Assembly: GCA_025363575.1 (NCBI GenBank)
Contig: JANYDM010000015.1
Span: 5,887 to 69,886, forward strand
DNA length: 64,000 nucleotides
Direction of reading: 5' to 3'
Source: Betaproteobacteria bacterium
Lineage (GTDB): Bacteria > Pseudomonadota > Gammaproteobacteria > Burkholderiales > SG8-41
Shown: piece after piece, positions 28,419 through 45,520 of the stretch
Layout: every line of letters begins with the position of its first letter
How positions within the stretch are numbered: the first letter of the stretch is position 1
Notes under the pieces: model-generated
Database searches by the model: none
What the model saw: only the letters and a program-made list of their open reading frames with translations
What the model was told of the DNA's origin: nothing
Position numbers and translations under genes: made by a program

Positions 28419-29561
28419 CTAGTCGCGCGGGAATAGCAGCGGCAGCGCGGCGTCTGCGGTCAGCATGCAGCGCGTGTTGTGTCCGCACCCCTCGACCACG
28501 AGCGTCTTGTGCTGCGCACCGTAGTTCTCGCGCACGTACTTGCCGAAGGCCATGCCGCGCGCGAGACGCGAAGAACCTTGCGCCATCGCCGCGCATGAGA
28601 TGTCGAAGTTGACGAGCGGCAGGATGTCGAGCTCGCCGAGCAGAAATGTGGTGGGCCGGCTGACGATCTGTTTCTTCAGCTGGTCATCGGTGGATGCCGC
28701 GCTGTAGCCGACGCGGCTGTTGATGCCGTACGGCCACGCGTCGTACGTCGTGCAGTTGCGCGCATCCGCGTAAGCGACATAGGGCGGCGGCGGGTTGGCG
28801 CCGCTCATTGCGATGAAGCCGGACACGGCGGCCGACACATTCGGCGGGATGGCGCTCGCGGTGGGCCGGAGATTGTCCAGATACGTATACGCGCCGGGGT
28901 TGGAGACCAGGTAGGAGACCTTGACGCCGAGCTCTTCGTGCACGCGATTGACCATCTGGTAGCGGCCGACGAACTGGCCGCCCGACGAGTGGCCGGCAAT
29001 GACGATGGACTTGAGATTGGGAAACGCATCCTTGCGCGCAAGCCTCCGCAGGATTTCATCGATGACTTCGTACGACGTCACATTAGCGTTGATCGCAACG
29101 CCGCCCGCGTTCCAGTGGCGCCCGCCGAACTGGCTGATCCAGTTGAGCTCATTGGTCGCGAGCACGTCGCGCGGGATTGCGCGCGCGGCGGCGACCGAGT
29201 TGCCGCCGCTGCTGCCGCCCGGCAGGCTTTCCTCGTTGGAGGCGAAGCGCGGCGATACGATGACGGTGTCTTCGAGCGCGCCGGCGAGAAAGGCCGCGGC
29301 GAGCACGTTTGCAAAATTCACGTGCGCATCGCGTGAGCCCCCGTGAACGATGACGACCGCGCGGGTTATTTTGTCGTTGCGCGCCGTCAGCGGCTGCGAG
29401 CGGTAGACGAGGGCGCGCATAGGCGTCTGTGTCGTGGTTATCCATTCGGTGCACGCGGCCGCCGCATCGGTGCAAGGTGCCGCGCCCGCTGCATGCGCCA
29501 GCGTGGCTGCGAGCAGGGCAGCCGCCCAGCGTATTCCAGCGATGGAAATCAAGTGACGCAT
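28419..29561 (-). CDS. Secreted alpha/beta hydrolase
   Basis: A 380-residue protein with signal peptide (MRHLISIAG...AAALLAATLAHAAGAAP). IVIAGHSSGGQFVGRY holds the nucleophile elbow G-H-S-S-G-G, VVIVHGGSRDAH gives the oxyanion-type HGG segment, and EGCGHNTRC supplies the late catalytic His. Several Cys residues suggest disulfides in the periplasm. It resembles lysophospholipase or feruloyl-esterase-like enzymes. It lies between Bug receptors in a minus-strand unit, so it could release the acid that those receptors bind, but this is inference. Confidence 0.8.
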   Translation of the reverse strand: MRHLISIAGIRWAAALLAATLAHAAGAAPCTDAAAACTEWITTTQTPMRALVYRSQPLTARNDKITRAVVIVHGGSRDAHVNFANVLAAAFLAGALEDTVIVSPRFASNEESLPGGSSGGNSVAAARAIPRDVLATNELNWISQFGGRHWNAGGVAINANVTSYEVIDEILRRLARKDAFPNLKSIVIAGHSSGGQFVGRYQMVNRVHEELGVKVSYLVSNPGAYTYLDNLRPTASAIPPNVSAAVSGFIAMSGANPPPPYVAYADARNCTTYDAWPYGINSRVGYSAASTDDQLKKQIVSRPTTFLLGELDILPLVNFDISCAAMAQGSSRLARGMAFGKYVRENYGAQHKTLVVEGCGHNTRCMLTADAALPLLFPRD

Positions 29562-29598: not shown

Positions 29599-30573
29599 TT
29601 ATTCCGCGCGCGCGCCTGCGTCTTTCACGACACGCGCGTACTTCGCAATCTCGGATTTTATGTAATCACCGAAGGCTTCCGGCGTCGGCAGCGTGAACGG
29701 CAGTATGCCCAGTTGCTCGAGGCGGGTCTTGACGTCAGGTGCGGCGAGTGCGCGGTTGATCTCGCGGTGGATTTTGACGACGATGTCGCGCGGCAGGCCG
29801 CGCGGGCCGACGAAACCGTACCAGTTGTCGACGGCGAATCCGGGCACGCCGGCTTCGGCCACGGTAGGCAAGTCGGGGAAGAGGTCGACGCGATTGGCGG
29901 TCGTTACCGCGAGCGGGCGGATACGCCCGGATTTCACCGCTGTAACAGCCGTGGAAACAGTTGCGAAGATCAATTGGATGTTGCCGCCCACGAGATCGAC
30001 CATGGCCGGCGCGCCGCCTTTGTACGGCACGTGCTGCATTTTCACGCCCGCGAGCGTATTGAACATTTCGCCCGCAAGGTGATCGGCGCGGCCGGCGCCC
30101 GACGAGCCGAAGTTGAGCCTGGCCGGATTCGCCTTCGCATACGCGATCAGATCCCTGACCGAATTGACGGGCAGCGCTGGATGCACAACGAGCATGTTGA
30201 GCGCCGTGACGCCGCGCGCGATCGGCGTGAAGTCGCGCACCGGATCGTACGGCAGCTTGTTGTACAGGCTGACGTCGACCGTCAGCGGCCCCATCGAGCC
30301 TTCAATGAGCGTATAGCCGTCGGGCGTCGCGCGCGCGCCGATGTCCATGCCGACGGTGCCGCCGGCGCCGGCGCGGTTGTCGATGATCATTTGCTGACCC
30401 CACGTCGAGCTGAGTTTTTGCGCAACCGCGCGTGCAGTGATGTCGGCGCCGCCGCCGGGCGCGACGGGTACGATCATGCGTATCGGCTTGTCGGGATACG
30501 TGTCGGCCGCCAGCGCCGGCGATGGGGCGAGACAGAAAACGGCCGCAAGAACGATGCGCGTTTGAGTTGTCAC
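29599..30573 (-). CDS. Bug/TctC-type solute receptor 2
   Basis: A 324-residue periplasmic receptor: signal peptide ending SPALAAD, then YPDKPIRMIVPVAPGGGADITARA and DNRAGAGGTVGMD, the Bug ligand loops, with TPDGYTLIEGS. Its ATG overlaps the stop of the amidase gene (four bases), so the receptor is translated with the amidase and probably binds the same substrate class. No membrane permease genes are nearby. Confidence 0.93.
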   Translation of the reverse strand: MTTQTRIVLAAVFCLAPSPALAADTYPDKPIRMIVPVAPGGGADITARAVAQKLSSTWGQQMIIDNRAGAGGTVGMDIGARATPDGYTLIEGSMGPLTVDVSLYNKLPYDPVRDFTPIARGVTALNMLVVHPALPVNSVRDLIAYAKANPARLNFGSSGAGRADHLAGEMFNTLAGVKMQHVPYKGGAPAMVDLVGGNIQLIFATVSTAVTAVKSGRIRPLAVTTANRVDLFPDLPTVAEAGVPGFAVDNWYGFVGPRGLPRDIVVKIHREINRALAAPDVKTRLEQLGILPFTLPTPEAFGDYIKSEIAKYARVVKDAGARAE

Positions 30574-32009
30574 GCGAGCGGCGGCCGGCGTAGATGCCAG
30601 TCAGTGGCATTTTCGTACGCCCAGCCGATGCGCAACACGCGTGCTTCGTCGTAAGCGCGGCCGACGATCTGCAGCGAAAGCGGCAGGCCCGTGGCGGTAA
30701 AGCCGCACGGCAGCGCGAGCGCGCACAGGTCGAGCAAATTGACGGGCCGCGTCAGCAAGCTCATCGGCGCCTTGCTCTGGTCGATTTCGCTCAGCGCTAC
30801 CGCCGGCAGCGGCATCGTCGGCATCAGCAGGGCGGCAAAGTCGCGCAACAGATGATCGACTTCGCGGCGCAGGCTGTTGCGCTCGGCCATCACATCGATA
30901 TAGTCCGCGGCCGACAGCCCCTTCGCCCAGCGGATGCGGTCGCGGACGTCGACATCGAACGGCAGATCGTCGCGTTCTATCCACGCGCGGTGCAGTGCGT
31001 AGCCTTCGGCTGCAATGATCTTGCCTGTGAGGTCCGCAAGGCGCTTGTACGCAACCGGCAGCGCGAGCGTGTCGACGCGCGCGCCAAGGCCGCGTATGAC
31101 GTCGAGCGCGCGCGAGAATGCGCGCGCGACTTCGGGATCGAGTTCGCCGAGTTCCGCATCCGGCAAAACCGCGAAGCGCAGGCCGGCGATGCCCGTCTTG
31201 AGCCCGCTTAACCCATCGACGGGCGCATGCGGCCACGTCTGGGAGTCGTGCGCATCGGGCCCATGTAGTGCAGCGAACAGCAGCGCGGCGTCTTCGACGT
31301 CGCGCGTCATCGGGCCTATGGTGTCGAGCGTCGCGGCGAGATTCAACGTGCCGTGATTGCTGATACGGCCGACGGTGGTTTTCAGCCCGACGATGCCGCA
31401 CAGGCCCGCAGGTATGCGCACTGAGCCCCCGGTATCGCTGCCGAGAGCGGCGGGCGCGAGCGCGGCGGCCACCGCGACGCCTGAACCGCTGCTCGAGCCG
31501 CCGGGCGAGCGCGCGGTTTGCGCGTCCCACGGATTCCACGGAGTGCCCATTGCGCTGTTCGTGCCCCACGCGCCGAATGCAAATTCGACCATGTGGGTCT
31601 TGCCGAGCGTAATCATGCCGGCCGCGTCGAGACGCTGCGCCACCGACGCCGTCACTTTGGAAACGCGGTCGCGCCAGAAAAGCGAGCCGCCGGTCGTGCG
31701 CTTGCCGGCGATCTCTATCAGGTCCTTGAGCGCTATGGGGATGCCGTGCAGCGGTCCGCGCGCCTGGCCGGCCTTGAAGGCGCGGTCCGCGATGTCGGCG
31801 GCAGCACGCGCTTCTTCGGCGTACACCTCCACGTAGGCATGCAGCTTCTCATCGTGCGTGCGGATGCGTTGCAGATAGCAATCGACGAGCGCGCTCGCGG
31901 TGAGCGCGCCGCTGCGCAGGCGCGCGGCCAGCACGTGCACCGGCGCGTAGGCGAGCGCGCTGCTGTCGTTGGCAGTCGCGGTTGCGGCCGGGTGTGAGGG
32001 TGCATGCAT
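30570..32009 (-). CDS. Amidase (amidase signature family)
   Basis: The 479-residue cytoplasmic enzyme hydrolyses a carboxamide. The Ser-cisSer-Lys triad is visible: Lys95 in GIPIALKDL, Ser172 in SPGGSSSGSG and nucleophile Ser196 in GSDTGGSVRIP; the 24-residue spacing of the two serines fits the family. It is not GatA, because GatB/GatC genes are absent and the context is catabolic: DUF4286-like gene upstream, Bug receptor downstream with overlapping start. Substrate unknown; aryl or ring-derived amides are possible. Confidence 0.92.
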   Translation of the reverse strand: MHAPSHPAATATANDSSALAYAPVHVLAARLRSGALTASALVDCYLQRIRTHDEKLHAYVEVYAEEARAAADIADRAFKAGQARGPLHGIPIALKDLIEIAGKRTTGGSLFWRDRVSKVTASVAQRLDAAGMITLGKTHMVEFAFGAWGTNSAMGTPWNPWDAQTARSPGGSSSGSGVAVAAALAPAALGSDTGGSVRIPAGLCGIVGLKTTVGRISNHGTLNLAATLDTIGPMTRDVEDAALLFAALHGPDAHDSQTWPHAPVDGLSGLKTGIAGLRFAVLPDAELGELDPEVARAFSRALDVIRGLGARVDTLALPVAYKRLADLTGKIIAAEGYALHRAWIERDDLPFDVDVRDRIRWAKGLSAADYIDVMAERNSLRREVDHLLRDFAALLMPTMPLPAVALSEIDQSKAPMSLLTRPVNLLDLCALALPCGFTATGLPLSLQIVGRAYDEARVLRIGWAYENATDWHLRRPPLA

Positions 32010-32417: not shown

Positions 32418-32458
32418 ACGCGAGAGTTGTCGCGTACATCAACCGACTCAGCGGACAC

Positions 32459-32845
32459 ATGCCGAAACAATTTCTGAATCCCGCCGCGCTCGACGCCATG
32501 CAAGGCCCGTACAGCCAGGGCGTGCGCGCGGGCAACACGATTTGGGTGTCGGCGCAGGCAGGCCAGGACGCGGACGGCCGGATCATCGGGTTGAACGATC
32601 CGGAGGCGCAGTGCCGGGCCATATTTCAGCGCATCGCAGCCGTGCTCGCCGCGGGCGACGCGACGCCGGCCGACATCGTCATGGTGCGCGGCTTCCTCAA
32701 GCATCGCGATTACATTCAGGCGACGTGGAAGGTCCGCAAAGAATTTTTCGGCGCGCATCGCCCGGCCAGCACGACTTTCATGGTGAGCGACGTCGAGCCC
32801 GAAGGTGCGTTGATGAGTTTCGAAGTTATCGCCGCGCTGGATTAA
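32459..32845 (+). CDS. RidA/YjgF-family protein A
   Basis: A 128-residue single-domain RidA-family protein: GPYSQGVRAGNTIWVSAQAGQD, ILAAGDATPADIV-type helix and strand, and GALMSFEVIAALD at the end. Classical RidA deaminates enamine/imine intermediates with an Arg in a P-A-R-S motif; here that segment reads RPASTTFMV, with Ser in place of Arg, so it belongs to a non-RidA Rid subfamily. ATG 32459 is the first start with a family-like N-terminus. It is followed after 15 bases by a second RidA-family gene. Confidence 0.87.
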   Translation: MPKQFLNPAALDAMQGPYSQGVRAGNTIWVSAQAGQDADGRIIGLNDPEAQCRAIFQRIAAVLAAGDATPADIVMVRGFLKHRDYIQATWKVRKEFFGAHRPASTTFMVSDVEPEGALMSFEVIAALD

Positions 32846-33254: not shown

Positions 33255-34535
33255 TCAGGGCGCGTAGATCCACGGATCGACCATCACGGTGCATGCAGGG
33301 ACGGGCAACCTTGCCGGAACGCGAATCGCGGTGAAAGGTACTGGCCCATCGCCGAGCGTTGCCTGCAAGACGCGGTGCATCGGATAAAACCCCGCGAGAT
33401 CGGTGTGAAACTGGTGGATACGCACGACGTTTTCGATCTGAGTGGCGCCCGCAGCGCATAGCTTCTTGAGTGCTTCCACGATGTATTCCATCTGCGCGCG
33501 CGCCGCCGTGCCGAAATAAGGCAGTCCCGCGCCCGCGTTGATGCCGGCGATGGGACCGTGGTCGTCGACCGCCAGCATGCCGGAACACAGCAGGAGATCG
33601 CCCGCGCGCACCGCCGCCGCGCCGTAGGTCATGGCCGCCGGTATGCAACCGTCGATAACTTGCTTTTTGGTTTTGCCGGCGTCGACCAGTGCAACCAGAT
33701 TGATTTCGATGTTGCCTGCGACCAGCCCGAAATTGCTGGTCGGCACTATGGTCAGCGCGCACTGGCGGGCGCCGAAGTGACTATTCCATACGTCGAGGAA
33801 ATGCGCCGTGTCGTCGATGTCGCGCAGGTACACCTGCGCTTTGACTGCGTTCTTGAGCGACGAGCCGGCGGCCGCAAGCGCGGGTACGAATTTTTCGCGG
33901 ATCAGGTATTCGGTCTGGCGGCGAATTTCGTAGCCGCCCCACAGGCTGTGGTCGGGAACGTGCGCTCGCGGATCGGGACCGTCGACGCCGCGCGCCATCT
34001 GGCCGGCGATGAAGACGAAGTCGCCGGACGTCACCGCCGGAACGAAACCCGACCATACGGGTGCGGTTACTTGCGGTGTCGCTACGCGTTTGGGATCGCG
34101 GCCCCCGCCGGGCAGCACCGCGAGCAGCGACGCCGTGATGTCCGCACGCGCCGTCAGCAATTCCTCCATGATCACGGAAGTGCTCGGCGGGATGTAATCG
34201 CCGAACGCGGCGCGGCGCGCGAGATGGTAGGGGTCGACCGCTTGCCACGTTGGATAATATTGATCGAGCCTGACGGTGTTCGCGAAGCTCGTTCCCGCTT
34301 GCGCAAGCAGCTCCTTGAACCGCGCGCAGATGAAATCGCCTTCGCGCCTGTGCCGCGGCAGCCCGTGATTGGGCAGGCCCGCGGCGCCCGCAACTTCGGG
34401 ATGCAGACCGCTGGCGTAATCGACCGCTTCCACGCCGGTCAGAAAAACCCAGTTACCGGCTTGCATGCACGGGGCGTAATGGATGTCGGTGCCGGCAATG
34501 CGCACAGCGCCGAGGGGAGTTACTTGCTTTGCCAT
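33255..34535 (-). CDS. Triple-domain RidA-family protein I
   Basis: The 426-residue protein is made of three consecutive Rid-type domains, about 1-142, 150-290 and 300-426. Each starts with a G-x-x-x-x-x-G-x-x-x-x strand pair (GNWVFLTGVEA; GDFVFIAGQMA; GDLLLCSGMLAV) and has the long helix FKELLAQAG / LAAAGSSLKNA / LKKLCAAGATQ. RidA proteins are homotrimers with active sites between subunits, so this chain may fold as a one-polypeptide trimer. None of the three domains has the catalytic Arg. It is last in a five-gene unit starting at 38495; gaps are 7-25 bases. Confidence 0.83.
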   Translation of the reverse strand: MAKQVTPLGAVRIAGTDIHYAPCMQAGNWVFLTGVEAVDYASGLHPEVAGAAGLPNHGLPRHRREGDFICARFKELLAQAGTSFANTVRLDQYYPTWQAVDPYHLARRAAFGDYIPPSTSVIMEELLTARADITASLLAVLPGGGRDPKRVATPQVTAPVWSGFVPAVTSGDFVFIAGQMARGVDGPDPRAHVPDHSLWGGYEIRRQTEYLIREKFVPALAAAGSSLKNAVKAQVYLRDIDDTAHFLDVWNSHFGARQCALTIVPTSNFGLVAGNIEINLVALVDAGKTKKQVIDGCIPAAMTYGAAAVRAGDLLLCSGMLAVDDHGPIAGINAGAGLPYFGTAARAQMEYIVEALKKLCAAGATQIENVVRIHQFHTDLAGFYPMHRVLQATLGDGPVPFTAIRVPARLPVPACTVMVDPWIYAP

Positions 34536-34545
34536 TGAGTTCTCC

Positions 34546-35559
34546 TTAGCGCTCGAGCTTGACGCCGGCTTCGCGCGCGACCGGCGCCCAGCGCGCTATT
34601 TCGTCTTCGAGGAACTGCTTGAACTCGGCGGGCGTGCTGGAGCGCGGCTCGCCGCCGAGATTCTGAATGCGTTCCTGAACGTCGGGCATCTTGAGTGCGC
34701 GCACCATTTCCGCGTTAATCTTGTTGATGATCTGCGGCGGTACGCCCGCCGGCGCGACCGCGCCTGCATAGCCGACCGACTGAAAGCCCGGCAGACCCGC
34801 TTCCGCGACGGTCTGCAGGTCGGGCAGCAAGGTGCTGCGCGAGGGCGATGCAATGCCGATGGGGCGCACGCGGTTGCCGCGGATGAAAGTGATGGCGGTC
34901 GGCATGTTGACGAACATGAAATCGATGCGCCCGCCGGACACGTCGGTCAGCGCCACCGGGCTCGAGTTGTAAGGCACGTGCGCGCCGTTGAAGCCAGCCT
35001 GTTTGCGAAAAAGCTCGGTAGCGAGATGCGGCGAGCTGCCCGCACCGACAGTCGCCCACGTCGGGCCGCCCGGCTTGCTTCTCGCATACGCGATCAGTTC
35101 GGCGACGTTTTTGGCGGGCAGATTGGGATTCGCGACCAGGATGTTCGGATACGTGGCAATCATCGAGATCGCCGCGAAGTCCTTGCGCGTGTCGTACGGC
35201 AACCTGGCGTAAACACTGGCGTTGATTGAGAACGGCGTCGACACGAACACCAGCGTGTAGCCGTCCGGCGCCGCTTTGGAGCCGATATCGTTGGCGATCG
35301 TGCCGTTTACGCCGGGGCGCGCTTCGTTGATGACGGGCTGGCCCCAGGCCTCGGCGAGTTTCTGCCCGACGATGCGCGCCAGCGTATCGGACAACCCGCC
35401 CGCTCCGAAGTCAATGATCCAGCGTATCGGCTTGTGCGGAAAGTCCTTGGCTGGATCGGCAGCGGCTTTCTGCTGCGCCATCGCCGCGTGGCTGCCTGCG
35501 ACGAGCAACGAAAGTGCAGCCAACAATACGCAGCCCAACCTGCGCGTGAGTTTACTCAT
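34546..35559 (-). CDS. Bug/TctC-type solute receptor 3
   Basis: A 337-residue receptor with signal peptide (MSKLTRRLGCVLLAALSLL...AMAQ) and HKPIRWIIDFGAGGLSDTLAR as the first ligand loop; the second loop is EARPGVNGTIANDI and the third PDGYTLVFVST. ATG 35559 is preferred to an in-frame start seven codons upstream. It sits between a RidA-family gene and a triple-RidA gene in one unit, the clearest case here of a receptor packaged with Rid proteins. Confidence 0.93.
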   Translation of the reverse strand: MSKLTRRLGCVLLAALSLLVAGSHAAMAQQKAAADPAKDFPHKPIRWIIDFGAGGLSDTLARIVGQKLAEAWGQPVINEARPGVNGTIANDIGSKAAPDGYTLVFVSTPFSINASVYARLPYDTRKDFAAISMIATYPNILVANPNLPAKNVAELIAYARSKPGGPTWATVGAGSSPHLATELFRKQAGFNGAHVPYNSSPVALTDVSGGRIDFMFVNMPTAITFIRGNRVRPIGIASPSRSTLLPDLQTVAEAGLPGFQSVGYAGAVAPAGVPPQIINKINAEMVRALKMPDVQERIQNLGGEPRSSTPAEFKQFLEDEIARWAPVAREAGVKLER

Positions 35560-35584
35560 GGCTTGCTCCCGTATCGTCAACGAC

Positions 35585-36031
35585 TTATTCCCATACCGCG
35601 GTGGCTTCGATTTCGATCAGCATGTCCGGATGCATCAGCGATGCGACCCCGATCGACGTGATGCAGGGCAATTCGCCGCTTGGCAAATGCTTCTCGAAGA
35701 ACTCGACGCGCGCCGGAATCGCCTCGCGATGCCATTTCTCGCGGTCGGTGAAATAAAAGGTCATGTGCACGATGTCGTCCCAGCGCGCGCCGCCGGCTTC
35801 GACAGTGCGTTTTACATATTCGAGCGCCTGCAGGGTTTGCGCGCGCATGTCGCCTTTGCCGATGATGCCGTCGGGACCGATCGCGGGATAGCCGGACATG
35901 CGCAAGGTGCTGCCGCCGTTTGTCACGATAGCATGCGCGATGCGGATGGGTTTGTACTCCGGGATGTCCTTGTGCAAAGTGCCGCAATAGAACTGCTCGA
36001 TGTCGGGAAGGACTATTCTGCGTTTTTTCAT
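35585..36031 (-). CDS. RidA-family protein C
   Basis: A 148-residue single Rid-type domain: SGYPAIGPDGIIGKG, ALEYVKRTVEAGGARWDDIVHMTFYFTD and MLIEIEATAVW. The position of the RidA catalytic Arg reads LPCITSIGV. ATG 36031 with GGGCGGAG five bases upstream is preferred over ATG 36049, which directly abuts the previous stop and has no ribosome site. It belongs to the 38495-33255 unit. Confidence 0.83.
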   Translation of the reverse strand: MKKRRIVLPDIEQFYCGTLHKDIPEYKPIRIAHAIVTNGGSTLRMSGYPAIGPDGIIGKGDMRAQTLQALEYVKRTVEAGGARWDDIVHMTFYFTDREKWHREAIPARVEFFEKHLPSGELPCITSIGVASLMHPDMLIEIEATAVWE

Positions 36032-36049
36032 GGCTCCGCCCTTTTGCAT

Positions 36050-37432
36050 TTACACCGCGACCGCTTCGATCTGCAACCGCGCGTCCTTGAGCGGCAGATC
36101 GTGCACCGCAATCACGGTAATCGCGGGCGGGTCGTCACCCAGAGTCGCGAGCAGCACTGCGCGCACGAACGGGAAGTCGGCCATGTCGCGCAGATAAATG
36201 GTAATTTTCAGGAGTGCGCGCAGATCCGAATCCAGGCTCTGCAACACGATCGCCAATTGATCGAGAATGCTTTGCGTTTGCGCCGCCGCCGCAAGTTGCC
36301 CGTGTGTTTGTGCGACGAGTCCGGCGATGGCCTGTTTGACGCGTTGCGCCGCCGCGGACTCCAGATCGGATGTGCGACAGATCATGCGGCCGGCAGCGGT
36401 TGCGTAGCCCATGAGGCCCGACACGAAGACGAGATCGCCGCCGCGTACCGCGTTGACGTGGCGTCCCCACGACGCGACACGTGGGTTTGCCGGCGCGGCC
36501 TGGACCGCGCCACGATAGGTGATGCCTTCAATTTCAATATAGAAATCGCGCCGCGCGAGGCTCTCGACGCCGATGAGCGTGCCGGCCGGAGCCCGTTCTT
36601 TGAAAAAATGCGCGGCGATCCGTTCCATTTCCGGCAGCTCGGCCATGTTGCGCAGGTAGATGTTCACCCGCGTGAGGTGTGCGAACCCCGTGCCGTGCTC
36701 TTCGAGCATGCTGCGCATCAGTTTGTAGATCGTGTAAGTCTGCGCGGAGATTGGTTCGAGCAGCGATCGTGCAGCGAGCCCGCCGGACGGCCGCGGCCAT
36801 GCGGTGTCCTTCAATTCGTTCGCGCCGTAGATGATAAGCCCAGTCTCCGGATGTGCGCCGATCACGCCGGCGTAGAACGTGTAGTCGCCCGCGCGCGTCG
36901 CCAGTTCGTAGTTCGAGAGCGGCCCCTGCACGACATGCTTCGACGTGAGGACTTTTTTTGCAATGCCCTGTGCCGGATCGGGGACGATGGCGACGGGATC
37001 GAAATAAACGACCGCTTCAGGATACAAAAGTCCCGGCACCTGGGATGCGGTGCTCGGGGGCGCAACACCGCCGTCGAACAATGCCGCGCGCGTACGCGCG
37101 AGCACCGGGAAATTTCGCATCTCGCGCTTGTAGATGCTGTAGAACAGGAGGTCGGCTTTTTTCGCGCCCTGCTCGGTGAGCAGCGTTTCAAGGTCTTCGT
37201 AAATGCGCGACGCCTGCGCGACGAATGTTTCCTCCCAGCTGTCGGGAGCGAGCAGCCCTAGCGCCGGCACCGGCTTACGGCCGAGGTCGCGGTAACCGGC
37301 AAGCGGCAGGCCCGTGTCGTGATCGAGCCCGGCGCGCCCTGATATGAAAAGCAAATGCCCTGCGCGCGTCGCCACGGGAAAGCCCGCTACTGGCGCGGCG
37401 ACCGCGTGGCTTGCGACGAGCGCTTTTTTCAT
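36050..37432 (-). CDS. Triple-domain RidA-family protein II
   Basis: The 460-residue protein has three Rid-type domains, about 1-150, 165-310 and 325-460, seen by the repeated starts GHLLFISGRAGL, GDYTFYAGVIGA and GDLVFVSGLMGY and repeated ends (AVVYFDPVAIV; YIEIEGITY; RLQIEAVAV). The Arg position of classical RidA is replaced in all three (Ser, Gly and Ile by eye). The third domain contains an inserted Gln/Ala-rich helix (QLAAAAQTQS). ATG 37432 gives the family-like MKKALVASH start seven bases after the amidohydrolase. Sequence identity to triple protein I is low, so the two architectures are old or arose twice. Confidence 0.82.
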   Translation of the reverse strand: MKKALVASHAVAAPVAGFPVATRAGHLLFISGRAGLDHDTGLPLAGYRDLGRKPVPALGLLAPDSWEETFVAQASRIYEDLETLLTEQGAKKADLLFYSIYKREMRNFPVLARTRAALFDGGVAPPSTASQVPGLLYPEAVVYFDPVAIVPDPAQGIAKKVLTSKHVVQGPLSNYELATRAGDYTFYAGVIGAHPETGLIIYGANELKDTAWPRPSGGLAARSLLEPISAQTYTIYKLMRSMLEEHGTGFAHLTRVNIYLRNMAELPEMERIAAHFFKERAPAGTLIGVESLARRDFYIEIEGITYRGAVQAAPANPRVASWGRHVNAVRGGDLVFVSGLMGYATAAGRMICRTSDLESAAAQRVKQAIAGLVAQTHGQLAAAAQTQSILDQLAIVLQSLDSDLRALLKITIYLRDMADFPFVRAVLLATLGDDPPAITVIAVHDLPLKDARLQIEAVAV

Positions 37433-37439
37433 TGCGCGT

Positions 37440-38495
37440 TCACGCCGCGTGCGTCTTGCCGGGCTTGTGCGCTGCAGCGAGCACCGCGGCGGCATTGTCG
37501 CGGAAGATTTTCTTTCGTGGTTCGTCAGCGAGACGGTTCAAGGCGGGCAGCGCGAGCTTCGCTTCCGGGTCACCGATGTCGAACGGATAGTCGGTGCCGA
37601 ACATCACGCGGTCCGCGCCCGCGATCTGAATTGTGAAGTCGACTGATTCGGGCGACAGCGAGCAGGTGTCGAAAAAGATTTGCTTGTAGTACTCCCCCGG
37701 GGCTTTCGAGACGTTTTTGCGATAGTACGGATCGGCTTCCCAGCCGGTCGCGTTATAGGCCGAATTAAGCCGCCCCTTGAGAAAAATGAGATTGCCGCCG
37801 CCGTGCGCGAGCAGCAACTGCAATCCCGGATGACGGTCGAACACGCCTTCGAAAATCATGCGCGTCACCGCCAGCGTCGTTTCGAACGGCCATTGCACGA
37901 GCACCTGCACTCCATAGAGCGGAAACCGCGTCGGCACTTCCGCTGAAACGGGATGCATAAAGAGAAGCACGCCGAGTTTTTCCGCGACCGTGAACAATGC
38001 ATCGAATTCCGGAGCATCGAGCGGGCGTCCGCCTGCCGTCGCCGGCAGCAGCGCGGAACGCGCGCCATACAAATCCACGGCGCGTTCGAGTTCGTAAGCG
38101 CATTGGTCCGGCGCCGCGAGCGCCAGTGATGCCATCAGTTCCAGCCGGCCTTGGCCTTCGGATGCAACCCGCGCGCCGTGTTTGTTCAACGCTCGCGCGT
38201 ACTCGACGCCCGCCGCGCCGCCCGGCCACGCGACGTAACCCGGGGGAGGGCCGATGAGCTGCAGATCGACGCCACGGCTCGCGAGGCTGGCGACCCGTTT
38301 GGGTACGTCGGAAAGGTTTTCATCCAGCGAATGCGGCGGCCCGTCGCCGCGCCTCACCCAGAATCGTCCATCCGCGCGGCGTTCCGCGGACAAACCGAAA
38401 GCCGGTTTGCGGCACAGGCCGTCAAGAAAAGCTTCGTCCAATGCGTGGGCGTGGGTGTCGATAATCAATTGCGGCGCTCCTCGGGGTCGGGCCAA
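37440..38495 (-). CDS. Amidohydrolase family 2, ACMSD-like
   Basis: A 351-residue TIM-barrel metalloenzyme: LIIDTHAHALDE with the HxH pair at 15 and 17, His in LLFMHPVSAEV, His in LLLAHGGGNL and Asp in VMFGTDYPFD. The order resembles the decarboxylase branch of the family (ACMSD and relatives). It heads a five-gene unit with two triple-RidA genes, a RidA gene and a Bug receptor. Together this suggests a degradation route for a small carboxylated, possibly nitrogen-bearing compound, with decarboxylation as one step. Confidence 0.86.
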   Translation of the reverse strand: MARPRGAPQLIIDTHAHALDEAFLDGLCRKPAFGLSAERRADGRFWVRRGDGPPHSLDENLSDVPKRVASLASRGVDLQLIGPPPGYVAWPGGAAGVEYARALNKHGARVASEGQGRLELMASLALAAPDQCAYELERAVDLYGARSALLPATAGGRPLDAPEFDALFTVAEKLGVLLFMHPVSAEVPTRFPLYGVQVLVQWPFETTLAVTRMIFEGVFDRHPGLQLLLAHGGGNLIFLKGRLNSAYNATGWEADPYYRKNVSKAPGEYYKQIFFDTCSLSPESVDFTIQIAGADRVMFGTDYPFDIGDPEAKLALPALNRLADEPRKKIFRDNAAAVLAAAHKPGKTHAA

Positions 38496-41803: not shown

Positions 41804-41901
41804 CGTTTTCCAAAAAAATGTCAGCGCCCCCTGTGTGGCCGGCGCGGCAAAGCAGGGAGAAGCGCAAGTCCACATATCTATTACGGCGGGAGGAGCTCGA
41901 A

Positions 41902-42351
41902 ATGGCAAGCCTGAATATCAACGGAAAAACCCAGCAGGTCGATGTCGATCCGTCGACCCCATTGTTATGGGCATTGCGCGAACAGGTCGGTTTGACGGGC
42001 ACCAAGTACGGCTGCGGCATTGCGCAGTGCGGCGCGTGCACCGTGCATATCGATGGCGCCGCCGTGCGCTCCTGCGTGATGCCGGTCGCCGCCGTAGCGG
42101 GCAAAAAAATCACGACGATCGAAGGCCTCGCGGCCAACGGCACGCTGACCAAAGTGCAGCAGGCGTGGCTCGATCACGAGGTGCCGCAATGCGGCTACTG
42201 CCAGTCGGGCATGATCATGGCGGCGGCGGCGCTCTTGAAGCAGAAGCCGAAGCCCACCGACGCCGACATCGACGCTGCAATGACCAACATCTGCCGCTGC
42301 GGCACCTTCCAACAAGTGCGCGACGCGATCCACGCCGCCGCCAAAGCCTGA
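41902..42351 (+). CDS. (2Fe-2S) subunit of a molybdenum hydroxylase, IorA-like
   Basis: The 149-residue small subunit carries two iron-sulfur clusters: Cys38, 43, 46 and 58 (plant-type) and Cys97, 100, 131 and 133. It passes electrons from the molybdenum subunit encoded just downstream (10-base gap). GGGAGGA at 41888-41894 and ATG 41902 set the start. The family includes isoquinoline 1-oxidoreductase and aldehyde dehydrogenases of the same two-gene layout; which applies cannot be told. Confidence 0.92.
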
Positions 42352-42361
42352 GAGGGACGCC

Positions 42362-44560
42362 ATGACTACCGCCAGCCAGAAAACCAATAAGCCCAATCTC
42401 AGCCGCCGCTCTTTCATTATCTCGTCCGCCGCCGTCGGCAGCGGGCTTGCGCTGGGCCTGAATATTCCGTTCGGCTCGTCCGTCGTGCGCGCCGCCGACG
42501 GCTCGCCTGAAGTCAACGCATGGGTCGTCATTCGGCCCGACGATACCGTCGTCATCCGCATCGCGCGCACGGAGATGGGCCAGGGCACTTTGACCGGCCT
42601 CGCGCAGATGGTCGCGGAAGAACTCGAGTGCGACTGGAACAAGGTCACGACCGAATATCCGACACCGGGACAGAGCGTGGCGCGCAAGCGCGCGTGGGGC
42701 GATTTCTCCACGGGCGGCAGCCGCGGCATCCGCGAATCGAACGAATACGTGCGGCGCGGCGGCGCCACCGCGCGCGTCATGCTGGTCCAGGCCGCAGCCG
42801 ACGAATGGAAAGTGCCGGCTACGGAATGCACCGTCTCGAACGGCGTGATCACGCATGCAGGATCGAATCGCACGACGACGTACGGGAAAGTCGCGGAAGC
42901 TGCGGCGAAAATCACGCCGCCGAAAGATGTGCCGCTCAAAGACCCGAAAGACTGGAAGATCATCGGCAAGGGCATCAAGCGCCTGGATACGGTGGAGAAG
43001 TTGACCGGCAAGGCCGTGTACGGCGTCGACTTCAAGCTGCCCGGCATGCTGAACGCGACGATCAAGGAATGCCCGGTGTTCGGCGGCAAGGTCAAGAGTT
43101 TCGATGCAGCCAAAGTCGAGAAGATGAAGGGCGTGCGCAAGGTCGTGCAGGTCGGCGACACCGCGGTGGCCGTCGTCGCCGATACCTGGTGGCAGGCGAA
43201 AGTGGCAATGGATGCCTTGCCGATTGTGTGGGACGAAGGCGACAACGCCAAGGTGTCGAGCGCAACGATTGCAGCGACGCTGAAAGAAGGCCTCGATGCC
43301 GAGCAGGCGTTCGTCGGCAACAAGAACGGCGACGCGAAAACGGCGCTGGCTGGCGCGGCCAAAAAAGTCGAGGCCGTCTACGCCTATCCGTACCTGAACC
43401 ACGCGCCGATGGAGCCGATGAATGCGACCGCGCGCTATACGCCGGACAAGTGTGAAGTCTGGTGCGGCACGCAGAACGGCGAAGCCGCCTTTGCGGCGAC
43501 GCTGGCGGCCTCGGGCCTGCCCGCCGACAAATGCGATGTGTATAAATTCCTGCTTGGCGGCGCGTTTGGCCAGCGCGGCGCGTTTCACGATTTTGTGCGC
43601 CAGGCCGTGCTCATAGCGAAGCAGATGCCGGGCACACCGGTGAAATTGCTGTGGACGCGCGAAGAAGACATGACGCAGGGCCGCTATCACCCGGTGACAC
43701 AGTGCAAGCTCGTCGGCGGATTCGATGCGAACAACAATCTGACCGGCCTGCACATGCGCATTTCGGGCCAGTCGATTCTTGCCGCGGTGCGCCCGGAAGC
43801 CATGCAAAACGGCGCCGATCCCGCGACGTTCCAGGGCGTTTCGCCGAGCGGCGAGTTCGAGTACGGCTACAGCGCTATCCCGAACCTCCTGATCGACCAC
43901 GCGATGCGCAATCCGCACGTGCCGCCGGGCTTCTGGCGCGGCGTCAACATCAACCAGAACGCGATCTACGTCGAATGCTTCATGGACGAGCTCGCGCACT
44001 CGGTCGGCCAGGATCCGCTCGAGTTCCGCCGCAAGCTGATGGCGAAAAACCCCAAGCACCTGGCCGTGCTGAATGCCGTCGCCGAGCGCGCAGGCTGGGG
44101 CAAGCCGGCGCCGAAAGGCGTGTTCCGTGGGCTCGCGCAAATGAAGGCATTCAACAGCTATGTCGCAGCGTGCGCGGAAGTGTCGGTGACCGGCGGCAAC
44201 AAGGTCAAAGTGCATCGCATCATTGCCGCAACCGATCCCGGTTACGCGGTCAATCCTGCGCAAATTGAGCGCCAGATCGCGGGCTCGTTCGTCTACGGGC
44301 TGTCGGCGTTGTTCCTGCAGGAGTGCACGGTCAAGAACGGCCGCATCGAGCAGACCAACTTCAACACGTTCAACTCGATGCGCATCGCGCAGATGCCCAA
44401 GGTCGAATCCATCGTCATGCCGTCAGGCGGTTTCTGGGGCGGAATTGGCGAACCGACAATCTGCGTGGCGGCGCCGGCCGTGCTTAACGCGATGTTCGCC
44501 GCGACCGGTAAGCGCATCCGCTCGTTTCCGCTCAAGAACCACGGCATCACGCTGGTGTGA
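42362..44560 (+). CDS. Molybdopterin-binding subunit of a molybdenum hydroxylase, IorB-like
   Basis: The 732-residue large subunit hydroxylates its substrate at a molybdenum centre. It begins with a twin-arginine signal (SRRSFI at 14-19), so it is folded with cofactor in the cytoplasm and exported. AFGQRGAFHDFVRQA near 400 and FWGGIGEPTICVAAPAVLNA near 690-710, with the Gly-Glu pair of the active site, match the xanthine dehydrogenase family. The FAD subunit is missing, as in IorAB. N-heteroaromatic ring or aldehyde oxidation are the likely reactions. No XdhC chaperone or cytochrome gene is next to it. Confidence 0.92.
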   Translation: MTTASQKTNKPNLSRRSFIISSAAVGSGLALGLNIPFGSSVVRAADGSPEVNAWVVIRPDDTVVIRIARTEMGQGTLTGLAQMVAEELECDWNKVTTEYPTPGQSVARKRAWGDFSTGGSRGIRESNEYVRRGGATARVMLVQAAADEWKVPATECTVSNGVITHAGSNRTTTYGKVAEAAAKITPPKDVPLKDPKDWKIIGKGIKRLDTVEKLTGKAVYGVDFKLPGMLNATIKECPVFGGKVKSFDAAKVEKMKGVRKVVQVGDTAVAVVADTWWQAKVAMDALPIVWDEGDNAKVSSATIAATLKEGLDAEQAFVGNKNGDAKTALAGAAKKVEAVYAYPYLNHAPMEPMNATARYTPDKCEVWCGTQNGEAAFAATLAASGLPADKCDVYKFLLGGAFGQRGAFHDFVRQAVLIAKQMPGTPVKLLWTREEDMTQGRYHPVTQCKLVGGFDANNNLTGLHMRISGQSILAAVRPEAMQNGADPATFQGVSPSGEFEYGYSAIPNLLIDHAMRNPHVPPGFWRGVNINQNAIYVECFMDELAHSVGQDPLEFRRKLMAKNPKHLAVLNAVAERAGWGKPAPKGVFRGLAQMKAFNSYVAACAEVSVTGGNKVKVHRIIAATDPGYAVNPAQIERQIAGSFVYGLSALFLQECTVKNGRIEQTNFNTFNSMRIAQMPKVESIVMPSGGFWGGIGEPTICVAAPAVLNAMFAATGKRIRSFPLKNHGITLV

Positions 44561-44672: not shown

Positions 44673-44735
44673 GCGAGAGGAATGAGGAATGAGGAGACGT
44701 AAAACTCGATCCTCGATCCTCGAACCTCAATCCTG
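44673..44735 (+). repeat. Short tandem repeats around the soxY start
   Basis: Two copies of GAGGAAT (44677-44690 region) are followed by three degenerate copies of CGATCCT/CGAACCT up to 44732. The first codons of the SoxY-like gene lie within this repeat, and the repeat also supplies the GAGG that would serve as ribosome site. Confidence 0.6.
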
Positions 44736-45198
44736 TCCCGGCCGCCGTACGTTTCTTGCAGCCGCGGGCAAGCTGACTGTCGCGGCTTTCCTGCCCGCGA
44801 CCGCCGCAGCCCAACTGAACCGCACCCAGCCTAACAACATGCCGGAAGTCATCCGGCGGCTCGCCGGCGGCGCGCAGATCAATCCGGGCAAAGTCAAAAT
44901 CACGCTGCCGCCGCTCGTGGAAAACGGCCACCTCGTGCCGCTCACCGTCAGCGTAGAAAGTCCGATGACGGCGACGGATTACGTGAAGGCGATCCATGTC
45001 TTCACCGACAAGAATCCGTTGCCGGAAGTCATCAGCTTTTACCTGGGACCGCAGGCGGGGCGCGCGACGTTTAGCACGCGCGTGCGGCTCGCCGACTCGG
45101 AAAACGCCATTGCGATTGCGCAGATGAGCGACGGCTCCTTGTGGTCCGATCGCGTGTACGTGGTCGTCACCACCGCGGCGTGTCTCGAAGAGCTCTAA
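44689..45198 (+). CDS. soxY: SoxY-like sulfur carrier protein
   Basis: The 169-residue protein has a twin-arginine signal (RRTFL at 19-23) and an immunoglobulin-like core (NPGKVKITLPPLVENGHLVPLTVSVESPMT) like SoxY, which carries sulfur intermediates on a C-terminal Cys in the periplasm. The C-terminus reads TTAACLEEL, with Cys165; the conserved GGCGG swinging arm of canonical SoxY is absent. It still pairs with a SoxZ-like gene one base downstream. Start ATG 44689 is the only ATG; the codon before is preceded by an in-frame stop. Confidence 0.82.
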   Translation: MRRRKTRSSILEPQSCPGRRTFLAAAGKLTVAAFLPATAAAQLNRTQPNNMPEVIRRLAGGAQINPGKVKITLPPLVENGHLVPLTVSVESPMTATDYVKAIHVFTDKNPLPEVISFYLGPQAGRATFSTRVRLADSENAIAIAQMSDGSLWSDRVYVVVTTAACLEEL

Positions 45199-45199
45199 C

Positions 45200-45520
45200 G
45201 TGGCCGTCGCCCGCATCAACGTGCCGAAGACCGCGCAGCGCGGCGAGATCATCGAGATCCGCACGCTGATCAGCCACGCGATGGAGACCGGCTACCGCCG
45301 CGATTATCTGGGCAAAACGCTGCCGCGCGATATCATCACCGAATTCAAATGCAGCTATAACGGCGCCGAAGTTTGCCGCGCCGTGTTTCATCCGGCGATC
45401 GCGGCCAACCCGTACATGGTGTTTCCAGTGCGCATCACCGAAAGCGGCACCCTGCAGTTCACGTGGAGCGGCGACAACGGCTTCACGCAGACCGAATCGG
45501 CGCAAATCAGCGTCGCCTGA
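45200..45520 (+). CDS. soxZ: SoxZ-like partner protein
   Basis: A 106-residue protein with RINVPKTAQRGEIIEIRTLISHAMETGYR, the SoxZ hallmark, and VFPVRITESGTLQFTWSGDNG. SoxZ dimerises with SoxY in thiosulfate oxidation. It has no signal, as expected because it travels with Tat-exported SoxY. GTG 45200 follows the SoxY stop by one base. SoxA, SoxX, SoxB and SoxCD are not in the window. Confidence 0.9.
   Translation: MAVARINVPKTAQRGEIIEIRTLISHAMETGYRRDYLGKTLPRDIITEFKCSYNGAEVCRAVFHPAIAANPYMVFPVRITESGTLQFTWSGDNGFTQTESAQISVA

Follow-up and report, generated by a model that had tools for sequence, protein, structure and literature searches.

Two triple-Rid chains without the catalytic arginine in one betaproteobacterial operon, predicted to fold as single-chain pseudo-trimers

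Single-domain Rid proteins assemble as trimers, and AmnE as a hexamer, according to the account consulted (PMC6742747). What becomes of such an assembly when three Rid domains are joined head to tail in one chain? The question is raised by a 64,000-nucleotide stretch of DNA from Betaproteobacteria bacterium (SG8-41), hereafter the window (GCA_025363575.1, JANYDM010000015.1, positions 5,887-69,886 of the forward strand), in which two genes of a single minus-strand run encode unlike triple-Rid chains, here called chain 1 and chain 2. The preliminary description of this DNA counted three Rid domains in each of them and proposed that they could fold as covalent trimers with three non-equivalent sites, specialised differently in the two versions. 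We suggest, on the basis of predicted models, that each chain is very probably a single-chain pseudo-trimer, in which three Rid domains close into the Rid threefold assembly, and that the sites between the domains are not those of RidA.

Both chains belong to the Rid superfamily, with PF01042 scores of 78 and 132.4 bits against the Pfam cut-off of 27.3. The profile search together with the structure gives three tandem Rid domains in each chain, as had been counted by eye; domain 1 of chain 1 is recognised by structure only. The monomer models predict a closed threefold arrangement of the domains (pTM, the predicted template-modelling score, 0.93), and both superpose end to end on pseudo-threefold chains, namely chorismatase and FBXO22, which agrees with the trimer-like arrangement expected. 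Chance or artefact as the source of the triple chains is rejected by 1908 relatives of chain 1 and 135 of chain 2 at E <= 0.001, counted among the candidates of 0.55-1.75 times the query length with most words in common; the best 120 of each set were listed. An alphaproteobacterial relative of chain 1 (G003:C596:8424-9630) gives two separate matches in different frames, possibly owing to a frameshift or an assembly break.

Are the clefts of these chains ordinary RidA sites? The position of RidA Arg105 was located by a MAFFT alignment with Arg-bearing single Rids and by alignments with Rids from the PDB, and its conservation was followed in 57 of the best 120 matches of chain 1 (alignment A1) and 46 of the best 120 of chain 2 (A2), fragments and near copies being dropped by hand. 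In domains 1, 2 and 3 the position is held by Ser118, Leu261 and Phe401 in chain 1 and by Ser127, Gly284 and Ile438 in chain 2. Arg is found in 0 of 57 sequences at each of the three chain-1 sites and in 0 of 46 at each of the three chain-2 sites, so that a view of them as usual RidA sites is not supported. The three single-domain Rids of the window also lack this Arg. The position of RidA Glu120 carries an invariant Glu only in domain 2 (Glu277 in 57/57 for chain 1, Glu300 in 46/46 for chain 2); in domain 3 of chain 2 the 46 sequences divide into 37 with Gln and 9 with Glu. Invariant columns number 23, 18 and 8 in domains 1, 2 and 3 of chain 1, and 33, 20 and 11 in those of chain 2. Hence, the three clefts are non-equivalent, as had been proposed, and domain 3 is the most relaxed. 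The family-invariant polar residues at or beside the sites are His104, Ser118, Thr119, Ser120 (domain 1) and Glu277 (domain 2) in chain 1, and Thr128 (domain 1), Tyr175 and Glu300 (domain 2) in chain 2. The sites may be specialised in the two chains.

The idea of a covalent trimer made of three tandem Rid domains was put forward earlier for 3x-RidA (Niehaus et al. 2015, PMC4433059), of which EF_0115 from Enterococcus faecalis is an example and which resembles both window chains in its three fused domains; the portion of that account consulted treats it as a RidA subset and holds no model or per-domain site analysis. It may be asked, then, whether chains 1 and 2 are simply RidA trimers in covalent form, which hydrolyse reactive imines as RidA does and owe nothing particular to the fusion. 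Chain 2 does exceed the cut-off of the NCBIfam family TIGR00004, 'Rid family detoxifying hydrolase' (115.7 versus 106.25 bits, in three matched stretches), and Ser, found in domain 1 of both chains, replaces Arg in about 10% of RidA proteins (PMC4433059, as far as consulted), so Ser by itself is no proof of a different activity. The 18 single Rids in our comparison have 10 Arg and 8 Ser, which is not a frequency because they were picked by eye from 35 rows. However, Arg is missing at all six positions in the 57 and 46 sequences aligned, chain 1 stays below the same cut-off (58.6 bits), and three of the genomes with the operon encode separate single Rids that have the Arg (L008 in G001, L006 in G002 and L007 in G005). 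The window chains also differ from 3x-RidA in forming two unlike versions in one operon, EF_0115 being compared by description only. We hold the ordinary RidA explanation to be improbable, and consider it probable that the chains perform chemistry other than that of RidA.

A second alternative is that the pseudo-trimers are non-catalytic and used for binding, scaffolding or sensing, perhaps together with the single Rid or the metalloenzyme encoded beside them as a partner, by analogy with the FIST domain of FBXO22, a part of a ubiquitin ligase, which has no obvious ligand pocket. Against such a role, which we hold to be unlikely, stand the runs of invariant polar residues at the positions of the Rid site, those of domain 1 in chain 1 most of all, and the catabolic-looking neighbours in the orthologous operon.

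One-chain pseudo-trimers of the Rid fold are known in chorismatase, AtzD (PMC3758960, as far as consulted) and FIST. Chorismatases (4bps, 5a3k, 5ag3) are the best end-to-end structural match for both chains, and the overall fold agrees. The identity is 22% for chain 2 (with 5a3k_C over 284 residues) and 11-13% for chain 1, and the window chains exceed chorismatases in length by about 95-130 residues; the chorismatase (FkbO/Hyg5) profile TIGR04444, with a cut-off of 325, gives 23.3 bits for chain 2 and no match at E <= 1 for chain 1. The cyanuric acid hydrolase/barbiturase AtzD (Toblerone fold) has three Rid-like units in one chain, thought to be concatenated YjgF-type monomers, with its site in the central barrel, and the Rid trimer sites lie between monomers on the outside (both from the consulted text of PMC3758960). 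PF01042 is the sole Pfam family of either chain at E <= 10, with no match to cyanuric acid hydrolase/barbiturase or FIST; neither structure comparison lists AtzD in its 50 rows, which excludes nothing. Identity to the FIST domain of FBXO22 is 6-10%. RidA, RutC and AmnE have the same domain and fold but one domain per chain, and RidA and RutC carry the Arg that the window chains lack. We found no description of a paired, Arg-less, operon-bound triple-Rid version in the open-licence PubMed Central literature (mostly titles and the starts of abstracts). Within that literature the version appears new, the triple architecture itself and the covalent-trimer idea being already published.

Did the pair arise by one triplication or by two? 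Comparison of the domain sequences leads us to favour separate triplications of chain 1 and chain 2. The domains cluster by chain and not by register, with support of 99/95 for chain 2 and 91/92 for chain 1; when a third triple-Rid chain is added, a 471-residue protein of a related locus encoded between chain 2 and the single Rid (L001:11383-12798; PF01042 in three stretches), the values are 100/98 for chain 2 together with it and 86/94 for chain 1. Under a simple model and a short search, the tree with each chain as a clade is better than the in-register tree by 18.9 log units, and in profile scores the chain-2 domains are closer to one another than to any chain-1 domain. The alternative, that both chains descend from one duplicated triple-Rid ancestor, is the less probable of the two, and it has points of its own. 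The profile-profile alignment of the chains is collinear over 417 columns (E 6e-26), neither the in-register tree (approximately unbiased test, p 0.29) nor the constraint of single domain pairs across the chains (p 0.12-0.30) is rejected, and domains 2 and 3 of chain 1 score with domain 3 of chain 2 about as high as with each other. In the best tree the domains of both chains are adjacent, all triple-chain domains lying on one side of a branch which, with support of 16/2, says nothing firm. In the same quick run the unconstrained tree came out 14 units worse than the by-chain tree, which shows that the tree search was not exhaustive. As a separate observation, domains 2 and 3 of the third chain fall beside domains 1 and 2 of chain 2 (92/69 and 85/44), the pattern expected from a circular permutation, with weak support and long branches; in tblastn, however, a piece of domain 3 of the third chain matches domain 1 of chain 2.

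Table. Genes of the triple-Rid locus and its surroundings (window positions)
Feature	Position	Strand	Details
Triple-Rid chain 1, 426 residues	33255..34535	-	domains at about residues 1-150, 151-292, 293-426
Triple-Rid chain 2, 460 residues	36050..37432	-	domains at about residues 1-158, 159-310, 311-460
Single-domain Rid, 154 residues	35585..36049	-	PF01042 60.8 bits; Ile at the catalytic Arg position
TctC-type periplasmic receptor	34546..35580	-	PF03401 218 bits; operon position kept in L001-L004
Amidohydro_2 metalloenzyme, nearest solved relatives ACMSD decarboxylases	37440..38495	-	PF04909 108.4 bits
Single-domain Rid, 130 residues	32861..33253	+	PF01042 78.2 bits; Phe at the Arg position; convergent neighbour, not an operon member
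Single-domain Rid, 134-residue reading	32441..32845	+	PF01042 69.6 bits; Ser at the Arg position; convergent neighbour
Amidase-signature amidase, doubtful associate	30570..32009	-	PF01425 348.4 bits

The chains belong to a run of five minus-strand genes, which encode in turn the amidohydrolase, chain 2, the single Rid, the TctC receptor and chain 1 (table). The gaps between them are 0-10 bases when chain 2 is started at the ATG at 37432 and the mechanical starts are taken otherwise. A scan of genome contigs with the chain-2 alignment gave five loci (L001-L005), and the order is kept in 4/4 betaproteobacterial ones (L001-L004; L001 ends inside chain 1), which confirms the presence of two different triple-Rid versions in one operon and extends the architecture to other genomes, as the preliminary description had advised looking for. 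Compared with the window, these four loci show 80-92% identity in the amidohydrolase, 64-84% in chain 2, 84-93% in the single Rid, 70-82% in TctC and 75-85% in chain 1. At the alphaproteobacterial locus L005 the values are 55% for the amidohydrolase, 41% for chain 2 and 66% for the single Rid, and other genes there resemble by eye those of ABC (ATP-binding cassette) uptake. Of the operon genes, the single Rid is the one most nearly identical to its window counterpart at all five loci. Besides the window's own, 14 apparent contigs, including those of L003 and L004, are common to the relatives of both chains (best-120 lists, by eye), which suggests more linked pairs. In 300 genomes taken from the order of G001 (a sample that includes G001 and G002, with at most 5 candidates scored per genome), chain 2 is found in 2/300 and chain 1 in 11/300 at E <= 1e-40, and PLSDB holds no plasmid relatives of either chain at E <= 1e-10. 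G001 itself has six open frames of more than 450 residues, each with two or three Rid matches.

A Pfam assignment was obtained for all seven genes, the five of the operon and the two plus-strand Rids, which together give 9 Rid domains in 5 proteins within 5.0 kb, 7 of the domains being in the operon. The 130-residue plus-strand Rid and chain 1 converge to within one base of each other; for the ~134-residue one the start at 32459 was used in computations. Both, and the amidase, were considered as operon parts and rejected, since among the four betaproteobacterial loci they are seen in L002 only, the amidase as one 76-residue piece at the contig end. They do not appear in L003 and L004, within about 7 kb beyond chain 1, and L001 ends too early.

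The nearest solved relatives of the operon amidohydrolase are 2-amino-3-carboxymuconate-6-semialdehyde decarboxylases (ACMSD; 2wm1, E 1.3e-30), and the His and Asp positions which we take to be the metal ligands are aligned. The Pfam scan recognised no other gene of the kynurenine or 2-aminophenol route in the operon. As the best explanation of the whole we rather favour Arg-less, diverged pseudo-trimers with one or two remaining sites, serving a catabolic operon; the catabolic role, taken alone, is tentative.

The proposed sequence of events is as follows. The fusion would have let the three domains diverge, and the three inter-domain clefts would then no longer be equivalent. With the Arg on which imine hydrolysis by RidA depends absent from all clefts, and with domain 3 least constrained, each chain may work with one or two remaining sites, closer to chorismatase than to RidA. 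In the cell, a carboxylate would be taken up with the help of the TctC-type receptor, and the ACMSD-like metalloenzyme would act on it with the formation of an unstable enamine or enol. The Rid proteins might then hydrolyse, deaminate or tautomerise this product.

Several points weigh against this explanation. The models were built on alignments of family members only (57 and 46 rows), the structure comparison reports only where each alignment begins and ends and how many residues it includes, from which the coverage of each domain is deduced, and the site equivalences come from the MAFFT alignment. No result points to a substrate for the chains or the operon, no ring-cleaving dioxygenase or pyridoxal phosphate enzyme is among the window genes scanned, and there is no chain 1 in the 19 kb of L005. 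Triple chains are also found in quite different gene settings, and a TctC gene near a chain-1 relative means little: it is present in 19 of 26 such loci and in 12 of 20 control stretches from the same kind of genomes, and is hence a weak functional clue. In the same survey an M20 deacylase occurs in 7 loci and 1 control, and Amidohydro_2 in 2 loci (one being a self-match, L039) and 1 control. Test stretches were 3.7-13 kb and controls 13 kb long, and the counts lean to the test set, several queries being drawn from its loci L036, L037, L039 and L041.

A bolder version has it that two separately invented pseudo-trimers were brought together in a single operon, each turned into a one-site chorismatase-type enzyme through the absence of Arg and the uneven decay of the clefts, and that with the ACMSD-like enzyme and the single Rid they form an undescribed pathway for the breakdown of a carboxylate that bears nitrogen or forms an enol. 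We regard it as unlikely in its entirety. If it were true, new single-chain enzymes would have come from Rid domains time and again, the cases being chorismatase, AtzD, FIST and at least two more. The Arg-less Rid4-Rid7 are said to 'remain mysterious' (PMC4433059, in the part consulted), and an operon with seven Arg-less Rid domains, including two predicted pseudo-trimers, is a tractable genetic unit for this question. The locus would also show a homotrimer on its way to an asymmetric single chain, with the domains still recognisable by sequence.

Among the distant chain-1 relatives, a group at 54-57% identity has a TctC gene that immediately precedes the chain in the same orientation in 4/4 loci (L070-L073, counted in this group alone). 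At L036 a nitrilase-type hydrolase, Amidohydro_2, an ornithine cyclodeaminase/mu-crystallin, TctC and a triple Rid form a run which is compatible with nitrogen-bearing carboxylates and imine chemistry. At L074-L077 and L082 a TctC gene and an M20 deacylase come after the relative; the deacylase of L075, the one scanned, is nearest to the ArgE/DapE subfamily, below its cut-off. Four genomes (L085-L088) have relatives at 40-41% identity with common neighbours in housekeeping surroundings: OmpW, aat, arginyltransferase, ferredoxin, DUF748/AsmA and pseudouridine synthase by Pfam in L085, and by BLASTP likeness in L086-L088. A single neighbour set for all triple Rids was thus sought and not found, with housekeeping genes at L085-L088 versus M20 deacylase elsewhere, and one role common to all of these chains is unlikely.

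Elsewhere in the window, a 380-residue open reading frame at 28419-29561 (-) has no Pfam family at E <= 1e-5. SoxY and SoxZ adjoin each other at 44689-45520 (+), after 2Fe-2S and molybdopterin-binding subunits at 41818-44560, all assigned by Pfam only.

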